Shown here: positions 267 to 9,937 of the stretch, one piece after another
Position numbering within the stretch: position 1 is the stretch's first letter
Layout of the letters: the number at the start of each line of letters is the position of its first letter
From: Candidatus Omnitrophota bacterium
GTDB lineage: Bacteria > Omnitrophota > JACPQZ01
NCBI GenBank assembly: GCA_016190205.1
Contig: JACPQZ010000017.1
Location: forward strand, 1-9,937
DNA: 9,937 bases
Direction of reading: 5' to 3'
Made by a program: the position numbers and the translations under genes
The notes under the pieces: model-generated
What the model was told of the DNA's origin: nothing
Seen by the model: the letters and a program-made list of their open reading frames with translations, nothing else
Databases searched by the model: none

Positions 267-1397
267 ATGAGCGCGGCGGAGATGGGGGAGGTTTATAAGG
301 AGTACTACGACAAGGCGTTGCAGGCGCTCGCCAAGAATAACGCCGACTACGCCGTTGAGCTTTTGAAGGCCTGCCTCGAGCGCGAGCCCGCCTTCGCCAT
401 GGCAAGGGAGCTCCTGCACAAGGCCCAGCGGCAGAAGCACGGAAACAAGCCGGTTTCCGTGCTTGCGAGGACGCGGGCCCAGGCCGGTCTCGCGCTCCTG
501 AAATCGCAGGCCAAAAATGTCACCGAGCACGATGCCTATGCTTTCCTCGCCCGGATCGAGGGGGCGCTTGCACAGGACCCCTTTAACCTGCAGGCCCTGG
601 AGCTTGCAGCGCAGGTGGCGAGACGGGCAAACTTAATTGACACCGCCATCCGGACGTATCACGAGATCATCTCTTTGGATGAGAGACATCTCGCCTCCCT
701 TAAGACTTTGAGCCAACTGTATCAAAACCGGGGCGAGATCCAGAGTGCGAGAGACATCCTCATGCTCGCGGTCCGGCATCATCCCCAGGATCCGGAGCTC
801 GCGAACGCCATCAAATCCCTCGACGCCATGACCACCATCGCCCGCGCCAGGAACGAGGACCCCATGAAGCAGGTCCCCTCGTCAACCGCAACCAGCAATT
901 CCCAAAGTCCCGGACCGGCCGTACGGGAATCCCGCCCGCAACCGGCGCCCGCTGAAACCATGTCCCCCCCGCCTCAACAGACCCAAAAGGACCGGGCTGC
1001 GGAACTTAAAAGCCAGTTGGAACGAAACCCGTCGGATCTCCTTTCACGCTATCAGCTCGGAGAACTCCTCTACGAGTCCCGTGATTGGGACCAGGCGATT
1101 CAACACCTCCAACAGGCCGTTCAACACCCGCGCCGGCGCACCGCGGCCCTAAACCTCCTGGGGCTTTGCTTTAAGAATAAGGGGATGCTGGATTTGGCAC
1201 TTTCCCAGTTCGAAAGGGCTTTTACGACTGAGGGCTCCTCTCACGAAGAACAAAAAGAGATCCTCTACAACCTGGGATCCGTCCACGAAGAGATGGGTCA
1301 GAAGGAAAAAGCATTAGGGGCTTTTAAGAAGATCTACGAAGAGGATATCGGCTACCGCGACGTGGCCCAGAAGGTCGAGAAGTACTACCGTGCTTAG
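267..1397 (+). CDS. Tetratricopeptide repeat protein
   Basis: This is a 376-residue soluble protein built of helical TPR-type repeats, a fold that normally serves as a protein-protein interaction scaffold. The partner is unknown. Repeats are recognisable at about residues 10-40, 90-135 and 143-175, and again at 244-285, 293-325 and 331-365, with typical pattern residues such as LYNLGSVHEEMGQKEKAL near 333-350. A Pro/Gln/Ser-rich linker at about 195-245 separates two TPR blocks, so this is a two-lobed protein. I see no signal peptide, membrane segment or enzyme motif. The ATG at 267 has no convincing Shine-Dalgarno but sits about 9 bases after the -10 hexamer of the promoter at 228-257. An ATG at 282 is an alternative start but has no spaced Shine-Dalgarno either. 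Its TAG overlaps the TAA of the convergent gene. The TPR assignment is firm; the biological role is not known. Confidence 0.88.
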   Translation: MSAAEMGEVYKEYYDKALQALAKNNADYAVELLKACLEREPAFAMARELLHKAQRQKHGNKPVSVLARTRAQAGLALLKSQAKNVTEHDAYAFLARIEGALAQDPFNLQALELAAQVARRANLIDTAIRTYHEIISLDERHLASLKTLSQLYQNRGEIQSARDILMLAVRHHPQDPELANAIKSLDAMTTIARARNEDPMKQVPSSTATSNSQSPGPAVRESRPQPAPAETMSPPPQQTQKDRAAELKSQLERNPSDLLSRYQLGELLYESRDWDQAIQHLQQAVQHPRRRTAALNLLGLCFKNKGMLDLALSQFERAFTTEGSSHEEQKEILYNLGSVHEEMGQKEKALGAFKKIYEEDIGYRDVAQKVEKYYRA

Positions 1398-4300
1398 ACG
1401 TCGTCGCCGAGCTCGCTTAAGTTCGCGATGCGCTGGGCGATCGACTCCATCTGCGAAGAGCCCGGGAGCCCCTGGGGATTGATGAGGGTATAGGCCGGAA
1501 GCTGGTCAAAGAGACCCGGAATCCAGTCGGAATGCTCCCTCGAGAAGACAGCCTCCTGAAAACGGGAAAGATCCAATTCAAACCTTATTTTTAGAGTCCG
1601 CTCCAAGACGTCGAGCGAAAGCGAGCCGTCCTCCTGGACGAGGCCTTGGGCCGAGCGCACATCGACCGCCCCCAAGAGATGCGGATTATCGCGCATGGCA
1701 TCAAGCTCTTCGTCACTGGCCGCAAGACCCACAATCCTGACGCGCGCCTGAAACGGCGCCTCATCCCGCTTCAGGCGGTATCTGTCCAAAATCTTTTCGA
1801 GCCTGGCAAGTCCCCCGCTCTTCTCGAGGTACTTAAGCCCCGCCCCGTCCACCAAAAGGCCGATAGGGACTCCCCCGTTCATTTGCCGGGCAAGGCCTAA
1901 GAAACTAAAAGACGGAATTTCACTTAAGACGTGCGCGCCGGGAAGGGTAAGCGATGGCTTTGCTTCAGTAACACCCGGTGTATCCACAAGCGCCTGAATT
2001 TCCTGTATCACTCCATCACCGTCCACGCTTCCGCCCGTCACCCCATCTCCTACCATGTTTCTCATGAGCCAGTCAAACAGATTGGTTAATTTCTCCTTTT
2101 GCTGCTCAAGGGCTGAACGGGCATCGATGACAAAGCGGTCCCGTTCGACGTCCCCGCCCATTCCTACAACCGTCAGCCTTTTGCCCAGTTCACCGCCTTG
2201 GTCTTTAAGAATCCGCTCGAAAGCTATCTGTTCCCTCACCAACAGAATCTTGGGCAAGGAAACGAGCTGTTCCATATTGAGCTTAGCTAACTCCACGCGC
2301 AAAAATTCCTTTACGACATCGCGAATGGGTTCCGCATCATCCCCTTCTTTGCGAAGTGAATCACGCAGAGATTGAAGGCTGATGGTTTCTGGATTTTCCC
2401 CACGGCTGGTCTTAAACTCGTCCAGATGATGCGCCAGGCGGCGGAGGGCGTAAAGATGGCGCTCAAACCTGAAGTTTTCGATTCCTTCATCGCGATCATT
2501 TAACGTGAAAAAATTTTTCCCTATGTCCATGTATACATCTTGAGGCAACCATCCATCCTTAACGAGTGTTTTAATGCGATCGCGGGTCCAATATAGGAGT
2601 GTGCTCTTCTTACCTTCATCCGTTACAAAATCTGCTCCCATTTGAACCGTGTCGGGCTTAAGCGCCTCCAGGAAGCGCTGGGCCTTGGTCATGAGCAGGT
2701 AGGTTTCGAGATTGAAGACATCGTATTCCTGAAGCCTGTTTTCCTCATTCCTTGCTCTTTCCCGCTTCTTATACTTTCCTTCCACCCCGGGTCCGCCGAA
2801 GTTCCTCAAGAGGCTGTATCTCATGTTAAGTACAGCGCCCGGGTGAATTTGATTGATGCCGACACTCACAGGAGTTACAGATTGCGGATAGCGCGAAAGC
2901 TCTATTGTGGAAAATGGGACTTCCACCCGCCCCGGCAAAGTGGTAACGCCGCGGGCGATAAAAGTCCCTCTCTCAAAATAGGCGGGGCCGCCTACATTGA
3001 CGTCCAGCCCCGGAAACCCTCCCGCTTTAAAGATAACCATGTGGAGCGGTGAAGTGCCCGGGTGATTGCTGTGCTTGAAGCCTGAAGCAATGTTGACCCG
3101 GCCCTCAGGGGCATAGATTCCGATCACAAGCGAGTTCTGATGATGGGAGACAAAGAAGGGACCCAGGAAAGATGAAGCGATCTCGCTTTTTTCGACCCAT
3201 GCAGAAGGCCCCAGCACCACGTTCTCAAGCTTGGCCCCCGTTCCCGCGATGGAGCCCTCCATCAAATACGAACTTCTGGCAATGACCCCTGCACCCACCA
3301 CCACCCGCGGGTGAATCATGACGTCCTCAAGCTCCAGGGCGCCATAAATACCGACATGCTCTTTTTCCATAAATTCAGCATCGTCGGCGTGTTGATTGGC
3401 CAGATAAAGACCCTTAATGCTTTGCACCCCCTCGATTTTATTTCGAGCTCCAATCCAGGCGTCGCGGATATCGGCGGAGTATATGATTACCGTCTCGTCA
3501 CCCACCCATCCATGTGATGGCAACTGCTCGGCGGCCTTGCGTGCCGCCGCACGGTGCGCCTCCAGCTCCTCTTGAGATTCCTGGTAAACCTGACCATCCC
3601 GCCCTCGCGCTGCGCGCTGGATCTCCATGATGCGCACGGCCTCCAGGTACTTTAAGCCCGGCCTCATGGCAATCTCCAGCTTCCCTTCGTCATCAGCTTC
3701 CGGAACTACGCCGATCTTCTTCCCTACCGGCAGGCGATCTTTATGAGTCCACCGCAGATTCGAGTGTTCAATCCGAGCATACTGGCCTACATGAACGTTC
3801 TCCAGGGTGGAGTTCTGAACTCGTGAACCCTCTCCAATCCGGACGTCTCCGATAAGAACGGCATTCGGCCCCAGCACCGCCCCTTCTCCAATTTCTCCCA
3901 CTTTTATACGCGGATTTACATGCACGCTCTCCGCTCCCAATACCGTAACACCATTCATGACGTGATACGACAGAGTACTCATATCCAAAGCCTCGTCCAA
4001 ACCAGCCAAAAGAAGGTCCAGCCAACCGCTGGTATTCAGATGGTTATAATCGTAAGTGGAGGATTTCCCAGGCGCAGATTTCCGTTCATAGTACGTGATC
4101 AACGTCAGTAAAGCGTTCTTTGCCCGAACCTTTTGATCAGGGCTGCGCTCCCAATGCCAGGCTACCCGGCCTTCCACCACGTTTCTTGTCCATGGAAGGA
4201 GAAGAAGCTCCTCCGCATCGCCGTGCACCGGAAGACCGGCACGCTGCATTAACTCTATCAGCTCTTTCAACTTAGAATGATAAGTCAGGCCGTCGCCCTG

Positions 4301-4726
4301 GACAGCGGGTGCGGGGAGAAGAAGATGGGGCGCCGTATTCGGATAAAGCAGGGAATCGGCGAAATTTATTATGCGAGTATTTAAGGCCGTTACGGCAGGA
4401 TCCGGCCCTGCGACTTGGACAAAACTTCCTGTGGTGAGGAGGCTCTTGGCCAGGAAGGAGGCAAGGGCGGGATTTCTATCTCCCGTTACAGGTGCATCGG
4501 AGCGTGAGAAAAATTCATCCAATGCGGCGGATGTCACCGCAAGCTGATCCGCATATTCCTCTGCCTGCTCACCCTGGGAATACATCTGGCGGATGGCAAG
4601 GTGTGAAGAGGAGGGTGAATCAATTTGGGAATATTGGCCGCTGCAAAAAATCACATTGGTGGGAAGCACGAATTGCACAGCACATGCAAGCAAAAAGACT
4701 CTGCAAATAAACTTGTTGAAAGGCAT
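1394..4726 (-). CDS. Exported left-handed beta-helix protein, DUF4954-like core
   Basis: This protein has 1,110 residues and starts with MPFNKFICR followed by a hydrophobic stretch to about residue 27, so it is probably exported. The first hexapeptide-repeat block lies at about 259-321 (repeated I/V-G-x-x-x units such as GEIGEGAVLGPNAVLIGDV). A charged helical insert follows at about 326-405, then a second beta-helix block at about 406-605. The motifs GPFFVSHH (around 522-529), HSNH (552-555) and PFSTIE (604-609) resemble what I recall of the DUF4954 family, which has a beta-helix of the kind found in acyltransferases and sugar-nucleotide pyrophosphorylases. I see no nucleotidyltransferase signature, so no activity is claimed. 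Residues from about 775 to the end match nothing I recognise. I chose the ATG at 4726 because GGAG (4736-4739) lies 9 bases before it. The upstream ATG at 4741 adds 5 residues and has only a weak site. The gene is monocistronic in appearance. Confidence 0.85.
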   Translation of the reverse strand: MPFNKFICRVFLLACAVQFVLPTNVIFCSGQYSQIDSPSSSHLAIRQMYSQGEQAEEYADQLAVTSAALDEFFSRSDAPVTGDRNPALASFLAKSLLTTGSFVQVAGPDPAVTALNTRIINFADSLLYPNTAPHLLLPAPAVQGDGLTYHSKLKELIELMQRAGLPVHGDAEELLLLPWTRNVVEGRVAWHWERSPDQKVRAKNALLTLITYYERKSAPGKSSTYDYNHLNTSGWLDLLLAGLDEALDMSTLSYHVMNGVTVLGAESVHVNPRIKVGEIGEGAVLGPNAVLIGDVRIGEGSRVQNSTLENVHVGQYARIEHSNLRWTHKDRLPVGKKIGVVPEADDEGKLEIAMRPGLKYLEAVRIMEIQRAARGRDGQVYQESQEELEAHRAAARKAAEQLPSHGWVGDETVIIYSADIRDAWIGARNKIEGVQSIKGLYLANQHADDAEFMEKEHVGIYGALELEDVMIHPRVVVGAGVIARSSYLMEGSIAGTGAKLENVVLGPSAWVEKSEIASSFLGPFFVSHHQNSLVIGIYAPEGRVNIASGFKHSNHPGTSPLHMVIFKAGGFPGLDVNVGGPAYFERGTFIARGVTTLPGRVEVPFSTIELSRYPQSVTPVSVGINQIHPGAVLNMRYSLLRNFGGPGVEGKYKKRERARNEENRLQEYDVFNLETYLLMTKAQRFLEALKPDTVQMGADFVTDEGKKSTLLYWTRDRIKTLVKDGWLPQDVYMDIGKNFFTLNDRDEGIENFRFERHLYALRRLAHHLDEFKTSRGENPETISLQSLRDSLRKEGDDAEPIRDVVKEFLRVELAKLNMEQLVSLPKILLVREQIAFERILKDQGGELGKRLTVVGMGGDVERDRFVIDARSALEQQKEKLTNLFDWLMRNMVGDGVTGGSVDGDGVIQEIQALVDTPGVTEAKPSLTLPGAHVLSEIPSFSFLGLARQMNGGVPIGLLVDGAGLKYLEKSGGLARLEKILDRYRLKRDEAPFQARVRIVGLAASDEELDAMRDNPHLLGAVDVRSAQGLVQEDGSLSLDVLERTLKIRFELDLSRFQEAVFSREHSDWIPGLFDQLPAYTLINPQGLPGSSQMESIAQRIANLSELGDDV

Positions 4727-4735
4727 CGTAGGGGT

Positions 4736-4739
4736 CTCC
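4736..4739 (-). promoter_or_regulatory. Ribosome binding site deciding the beta-helix gene start
   Basis: On the minus strand GGAG is followed by 9 bases and then ATG (4726-4724). The GGAG overlaps the competing upstream ATG at 4741, which is preceded only by a weak AGAGA. The start at 4726 also gives a shorter, more typical signal-peptide n-region. Confidence 0.5.
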
Positions 4740-4791
4740 ATTCTCTGGGGTGAGAACAGGGTTAAAAGGTGGGCGGATTTAGCAGAAACTC

Positions 4792-9749: not shown

Positions 9750-9790
9750 ATCGGCCCGCCTCGGTCCCTTGGGCCCGAATCGGGCCGATC
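9750..9790. repeat. GC-rich inverted repeats left of copy B
   Basis: ATCGGCCCG (9750-9758) is the reverse complement of CGGGCCGAT (9781-9789), with 22 bases between. Nested in it is GGCCCGA-A-TCGGGCC (9772-9786), a perfect 7+1+7 palindrome that could form a tight hairpin. CGGGCCGATC at 9781-9790 matches, inverted, 160-169 beside copy A. It lies upstream of the epimerase gene, where I find no convincing sigma70 promoter, so it may be an operator, a hairpin in the leader or part of the mobile repeat. Confidence 0.55.
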
Positions 9791-9802
9791 GCAGCCGGGG
9801 GC

Positions 9803-9932
9803 GGCGCCCTTCGGAGCGAACCTCATTTTTTGCGCGGCACGGTCCGCCCTATTTCCAAAGAAAGATGCGGCGCGAAAAAATTGCAGAGCGTGGGCCGCGC
9901 GGGGGCCCGAGCGTTTCGCGGAGATGGGCGCC
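9803..9932. repeat. Structured dispersed repeat, copy B
   Basis: This is the second copy of the element at 1-129, in direct orientation and 130 bp long. The same stems form. GGCGCCCTTC (9803-9812) pairs with 9923-9932, where the G-T pair of copy A is now G-C but one T-A pair has become T-T. The GGA/GGA internal loop and the GCGAA/TTCGC stem are unchanged. The T6/A6 stem (9826-9831 and 9875-9880) has one bulged G. The small hairpin is GGGCC (9892-9896) and GGCCC (9904-9908) around a 7-base loop. Its second base pair is G-C where copy A has C-G, a double compensatory change. The right flank is cut by the window end after 9937. Confidence 0.8.
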
Positions 9933-9937
9933 GTCCC

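Follow-up and report, generated by a model that had tools for sequence, protein, structure and literature searches.

The window, i.e. the whole 9,937-nucleotide stretch of DNA that was analysed, carries two copies of a structured repeat with a 129/130-bp core, copy 1 at 1-129 and copy 2 at 9803-9932, where an earlier reading made from the sequence alone (the sequence-only reading) had placed them. Both ends of the contig (C5 of the source assembly) fall inside repeat copies; they are therefore breaks in the assembly, and both window copies are incomplete. The core boundaries are also too narrow, with paired flanks carrying copy 1 to ~201 and copy 2 back to ~9753. The parts of the two copies are as follows:

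1-129, + strand: core of copy 1, the 5' part of which lies beyond the contig end (match to model R1, described below, with E 1.5e-21)
1-10/120-129, + strand: P1 of copy 1
14-18/112-116, + strand: P2 of copy 1
20-34/68-83, + strand: P3 of copy 1, with a distal part at 42-45/64-67 and a variable tip at 46-63
85-93/101-109, + strand: P4 of copy 1
130-201, + strand: copy 1 beyond its core on the 3' side, a part that other full-length copies conserve
160-168, + strand: 3' outer-stem arm of copy 1, GATCGGCCC
182-201, + strand: 3' terminal inverted-repeat arm of copy 1, GGGGACAAGACGGGCATTTC
9753-9802, + strand: 5' flank of copy 2, assigned by comparison with other copies
9753-9775, + strand: terminal arm of copy 2, GGCCCGCCTCGGTCCCTTGGGCC
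9781-9792, + strand: outer-stem arm of copy 2, CGGGCCGATCGC
9803-9932, + strand: core of copy 2
9803-9812/9923-9932, + strand: P1 of copy 2
9816-9820/9915-9919, + strand: P2 of copy 2
9822-9836/9871-9886, + strand: P3 of copy 2, with a distal part at 9844-9847/9867-9870 and a variable tip at 9848-9866
9888-9896/9904-9912, + strand: P4 of copy 2
9933-9937, + strand: 3' arm of copy 2, beginning only, truncated by the contig end

Elsewhere in the window, 1394-4741 (- strand) encodes a large protein (1115 aa) that matches DUF4954 and contains hexapeptide repeats, lying between a TPR protein and PriA.

The sequence-only reading had described a pair switch between the copies (C90-G104 in copy 1, G9893-C9907 in copy 2), an outer-stem change from G4-U126 to G9806-C9929, a T-T mismatch (T9810/T9925) and a GGA/GGA internal loop, and all of these held. 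The C-G/G-C switch is a two-state difference in the source genome, with six copies in each state, so that taken alone it could be the result of one event plus gene conversion. The same reading had favoured selection on structure over simple duplication; this needed amendment, as duplication is also real and the family is dispersed and multi-copy. Searches of the source genome (1.65 Mb in 76 contigs), from which its copy number was derived, gave 16 blastn matches with a best E of 4e-63, ~14 of them near-complete, and the copies are therefore not chance. A covariance model added one diverged copy, adjoining a 6S RNA gene.

Most of the source-genome copies are part of a composite of ~540-600 bp bounded by terminal inverted repeats (GCCCGKCTYGKCCCC...GGGGMCRAGMCGGGC), in which the core is usually enclosed by an extra stem (GGGCCGATC/GATCGGCCC) and preceded by unit A, a second structured unit of ~290 bp; single-unit versions of the core or of unit A also exist. 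Terminal inverted repeats are likewise present in f16, as outer stems AGCGGGT...ACCCGCT, and most f16-type copies have TA at the 5' terminus, about half having it at both ends. For unit A itself (L036-L046, source genome, outside the window) the opposite strand gives the better fold, and the stems of its two side hairpins are retained while their sequences differ wholly from copy to copy. An insert of ~72 bp, ACCGAGCCCGGGCACCCGC...GTATACGTAGTATACCGGC, built of two hairpins, lies at one identical point beside P4 in three copies (L049 and L054 in G000:C30 and C36, and L172 in G000:C60) and is apparently a nested insertion.

The sequence-only reading had proposed a covariance-model search of the source genome and its relatives, and searches of this kind found homologues in both; that the phylum is Omnitrophota is an inference from the best match of PriA. 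Model R1, built from 12 source-genome copies, gave full-length matches in 13 other Omnitrophota genomes of several families, with little sequence in common but an identical architecture. Model R2, built from 22 diverse matches, detected the family at E <= 0.001 in 150 of 384 Omnitrophota genomes, in one of 392 Planctomycetota genomes and in none of 30 genomes of other phyla. The family is thus present in at least 39% of the sampled Omnitrophota, usually in several copies per genome, and is almost absent elsewhere. Eight genomes that were re-searched held 3-25 copies each. Just eight candidates were scored per genome in the 384-genome scan, so that both the copy numbers and the prevalence are lower bounds; all scans of more than 40 genomes, including the Planctomycetota control, were limited in this way to 7-8 candidates per genome, whereas up to 102 were scored in the 30-genome control. 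In addition, the E-values are rough (short calibration) and draft genomes break at repeats. The Planctomycetota set contained one clear member (L276:586-763) carrying the hallmark motifs, for which contamination and horizontal transfer were not distinguished.

As it is mainly structure that is conserved, 57 further genomes of the phylum gave no blastn matches. Nothing relevant came from viral and genome collections searched for exact 19-20-base matches, or from plasmids and phages searched by blastn. Identity between copies fell from 0.757 within a genome to 0.597 within a family and 0.456 between families, a gradient that may reflect amplification within genomes or gene conversion, either of which would be expected to produce it. 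A chance palindrome or tandem artefact is ruled out by the source-genome BLAST matches together with the distribution of R2 matches across phyla.

An alignment of 67 distinct copies showed a shared architecture of an outer stem, a purine internal loop and two hairpins, one long and one short, that meet in a three-way junction. The elements occur in the order P1, purine-rich internal loop (GGA/GGA in the window copies), P2, P3, linker GAGYGAR, P4 and linker CGARCG. The long hairpin, P3, has a variable tip, the motif GGGCAYGG and an asymmetric motif near GAGCGGGCAYGGTT...GAGCGAG; the short hairpin, P4, has the loop CGCUGG (CGCTGG in DNA), closed by covarying pairs. On a reading of the consensus alone, CGAGC opposite GCGAG could form tandem G-A pairs, both in P3 and at the P4 base. 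At three loci (L180, L193 and L197) the forward element is enclosed by a model match on the reverse strand, which gives the impression of one element placed within the hairpin tip of another.

In the structure-guided alignment 94.8% of cells were paired, compared with 57.6% after shuffling, and double changes occurred in 47 of 48 pairs. Because this alignment had been fitted to the structure, the test was repeated with plain MAFFT: 18 copies, taken from genomes that belong mostly to a single family, were aligned by sequence alone, and on this alignment RNAalifold predicted 42 pairs, 34 of which showed compensatory double changes. Substitutions in the stems are thus non-random, which supports the earlier claim of selection on structure, and neither of the outcomes that the sequence-only reading had named as refuting it (random stem substitutions, or absence of the element outside the two sites) was observed. 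On the + strand G-U outnumbered A-C by 114 to 17, and this strand was more stable than its complement in 65 of 67 copies under RNA parameters and in all 67 under DNA parameters. One strand, the + strand of the window, is therefore selected to fold, although neither the G-U:A-C ratio nor strand stability can separate RNA from single-stranded DNA. The earlier suggestion of an RNA or a cruciform is amended accordingly, as a single folded strand (RNA or single-stranded DNA) fits the asymmetry better than a double-stranded cruciform does. The family is thus conserved as a strand-specific fold, with an outer stem, a purine internal loop, a three-way junction, conserved loop motifs and conserved motifs read as tandem G-A pairs. 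The sequence-only reading had not recognised the element as a known RNA family, and Rfam 15 scans gave zero family matches to it, and only hits lying outside it (rRNA, 5S, 6S) or below the gathering score.

The copies are intergenic, and the genes whose stop codons face them (neighbours being taken as simple open reading frames) end at a median distance of 35 nt, many of them at 1-20 nt. Orientation relative to the stop-facing gene is mixed (20 same, 35 opposite). The flanking genes belong to many unrelated, mostly housekeeping, families with none recurring, and most are arranged in tandem; the 25 Pfam families most frequent in 105 flanking proteins included no transposase. One copy directly follows a 5S rRNA and one lies just downstream of a 6S RNA, and divergent (inverted) pairs separated by 45-250 bp are found repeatedly in G107, G060 and G018. 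Source-genome copies end in an A-tract, a stem and a T-tract (e.g. GAAAAGGCCCGG...CCGGGCCTTTTC); phylum-wide, the flanks are T-rich on the 5' side and A-rich on the 3' side.

A single orthologous site was examined, i.e. the junction upstream of tmk in genus g44, where the upstream gene is one that we take to be cysS from its C-terminus (Pfam tRNA-synt_1e is found among the neighbours). The element lies upstream of tmk in six genomes: G144, G222 (where the gene upstream of the element differs), G141, G415, G283 (cut) and G255 (reversed). In G420 and G369 cysS and tmk appear to overlap directly, with no element, and in G050 only the outer stems are left. On the tmk gene tree, which has few strongly supported branches, the six carriers require six changes, of which well-supported branches force at least four. 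No clean target-site duplication was found at this site. Four further genomes, G329, G134, G250 and G417 (L245, L246, L248 and L252), carry other hairpins at the tmk site with similar ends (AGCGGGTGAC...CAGGACCCGCT) and a different interior (in several, GCGCGCAACGYAAGTGAGCAC), apparently a second family with the same termini.

The family is therefore multi-copy and intergenic, most alike within a genome, and present or absent at orthologous sites. It is likely to be a previously uncatalogued family of folded non-coding repeats of ~150 bases, judged against Rfam 15 and the literature searched; we found no description of it in that literature, which is an incomplete sample. The explanation that we favour, with moderate confidence, is that it is a new family of small, protein-less (non-autonomous), dispersed mobile structured repeats of Omnitrophota that behave like ERIC. 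In such a scheme the + strand, as RNA or single-stranded DNA, would be bound by an unidentified protein supplied in trans, which would copy or move the element, in either orientation, into the spaces just past stop codons. The hairpin tips would then drift but the fold would persist, because what is selected is mobilisation and not a function for the host at the individual sites, and effects on neighbouring transcripts would probably be secondary. Movement is inferred from distribution only: none was seen directly and no mobilising enzyme was identified. Further points count against the mobile-repeat reading, namely that phylum-wide conservation of the interior motifs exceeds that of a typical MITE and could mean a host function, and that gene conversion could also yield the high identity within genomes. 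A bolder version, no more than a possibility, is that this is a phylum-specific mobile RNA (or folded single-stranded DNA) in which the three-way-junction fold is itself the active part, e.g. an RNA that resembles a ribozyme or a guide, or that recruits proteins, and that brings about its own insertion behind genes through a previously undescribed mechanism.

The main rival, which is clearly less probable, is a structured non-coding RNA that serves the host and is present in many copies homogenised by gene conversion, e.g. an RNA that binds a protein or acts in regulation and has a promoter of its own; there are no RNA data on transcription of the folded strand. The strand-specific fold, the phylum-wide unpaired motifs (GGGCAYGG, GAGYGAR, CGCUGG and CGARCG), the compensatory changes and a position independent of neighbour orientation all support it. 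However, over half of the sampled genomes lack the element at the threshold used, its presence varies at the cysS-tmk site, and it has no fixed gene partner.

A cis-acting 3'-end element, i.e. a bidirectional transcription terminator or an mRNA stabiliser behind genes, is unlikely. It would fit the many copies 1-20 nt past a stop codon, the 5S rRNA and 6S RNA neighbours, and the G+C stem followed by a T-run in source-genome copies. However, the T-rich 5' and A-rich 3' flanks seen across the phylum are the reverse of a terminator, the flanking genes are mostly in tandem and both element orientations occur, and a terminator would need no conserved three-way junction on one strand. We give still less credence to a REP/REPIN-like repeat of giant size, mobilised by a Y1 (RAYT/TnpA-REP) transposase, for which the inverted pairs and four Y1 matches in the source genome could be cited. 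Among the 384 genomes Y1 occurred in 118 of 150 carriers and 187 of 234 non-carriers (odds ratio 0.93, p 0.80), three carriers that are 95-98% complete with 7-8 copies found (G018, G058 and G064) have no Y1 at all, and an element of ~150 bp or more does not meet the definition of a REP. An integron attC site is argued against, without a formal test, by the dispersed copies, second hairpin and conserved interior, and no Rfam intron match pointed to a group II intron.

A narrow host range is usual for small repeats like ERIC and REP; the Omnitrophota repeat, in a phylum with almost no cultured members, retains a single elaborate fold throughout while its sequence turns over. The family offers a ready alignment for structure probing, serves as a marker for Omnitrophota genomes, whose assemblies it also breaks, and provides a concrete case for how bacterial repeats without a transposase spread.

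Among known systems, REP/REPIN repeats with RAYT (PMC3116915) resemble the family in being intergenic and multi-copy, in forming inverted pairs and in plausibly folding as a single strand; REPs are 20-40 bp (PMC3733652), however, and the Omnitrophota repeat is longer and has no statistical association with Y1 transposases. Orphan structured bacterial RNA families (Rfam-type candidates) share the intergenic location and conserved strand-specific secondary structure, but the Omnitrophota repeat matches none in Rfam 15 at the thresholds applied and is dispersed and mobile-like where they occupy one or a few fixed loci. The closest likeness in behaviour is to ERIC/IRU/RU-1, the 127-bp enterobacterial intergenic repeats, and to small MITEs (Correia/NEMIS, RUP, RPE), which are also 100-200 bp, dispersed and intergenic, with palindromic ends, often a terminal TA, no internal transposase and predicted structured transcripts (PMC2229807), although no sequence relation has been shown and neither target duplication nor an autonomous partner has been demonstrated for the Omnitrophota repeat. 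Repeats of the ERIC kind are long stem-loops, each confined to a narrow group of hosts. In the Omnitrophota repeat, by contrast, a three-way junction, a set of unpaired motifs and a single folded strand persist throughout the phylum, with heavy compensatory change.
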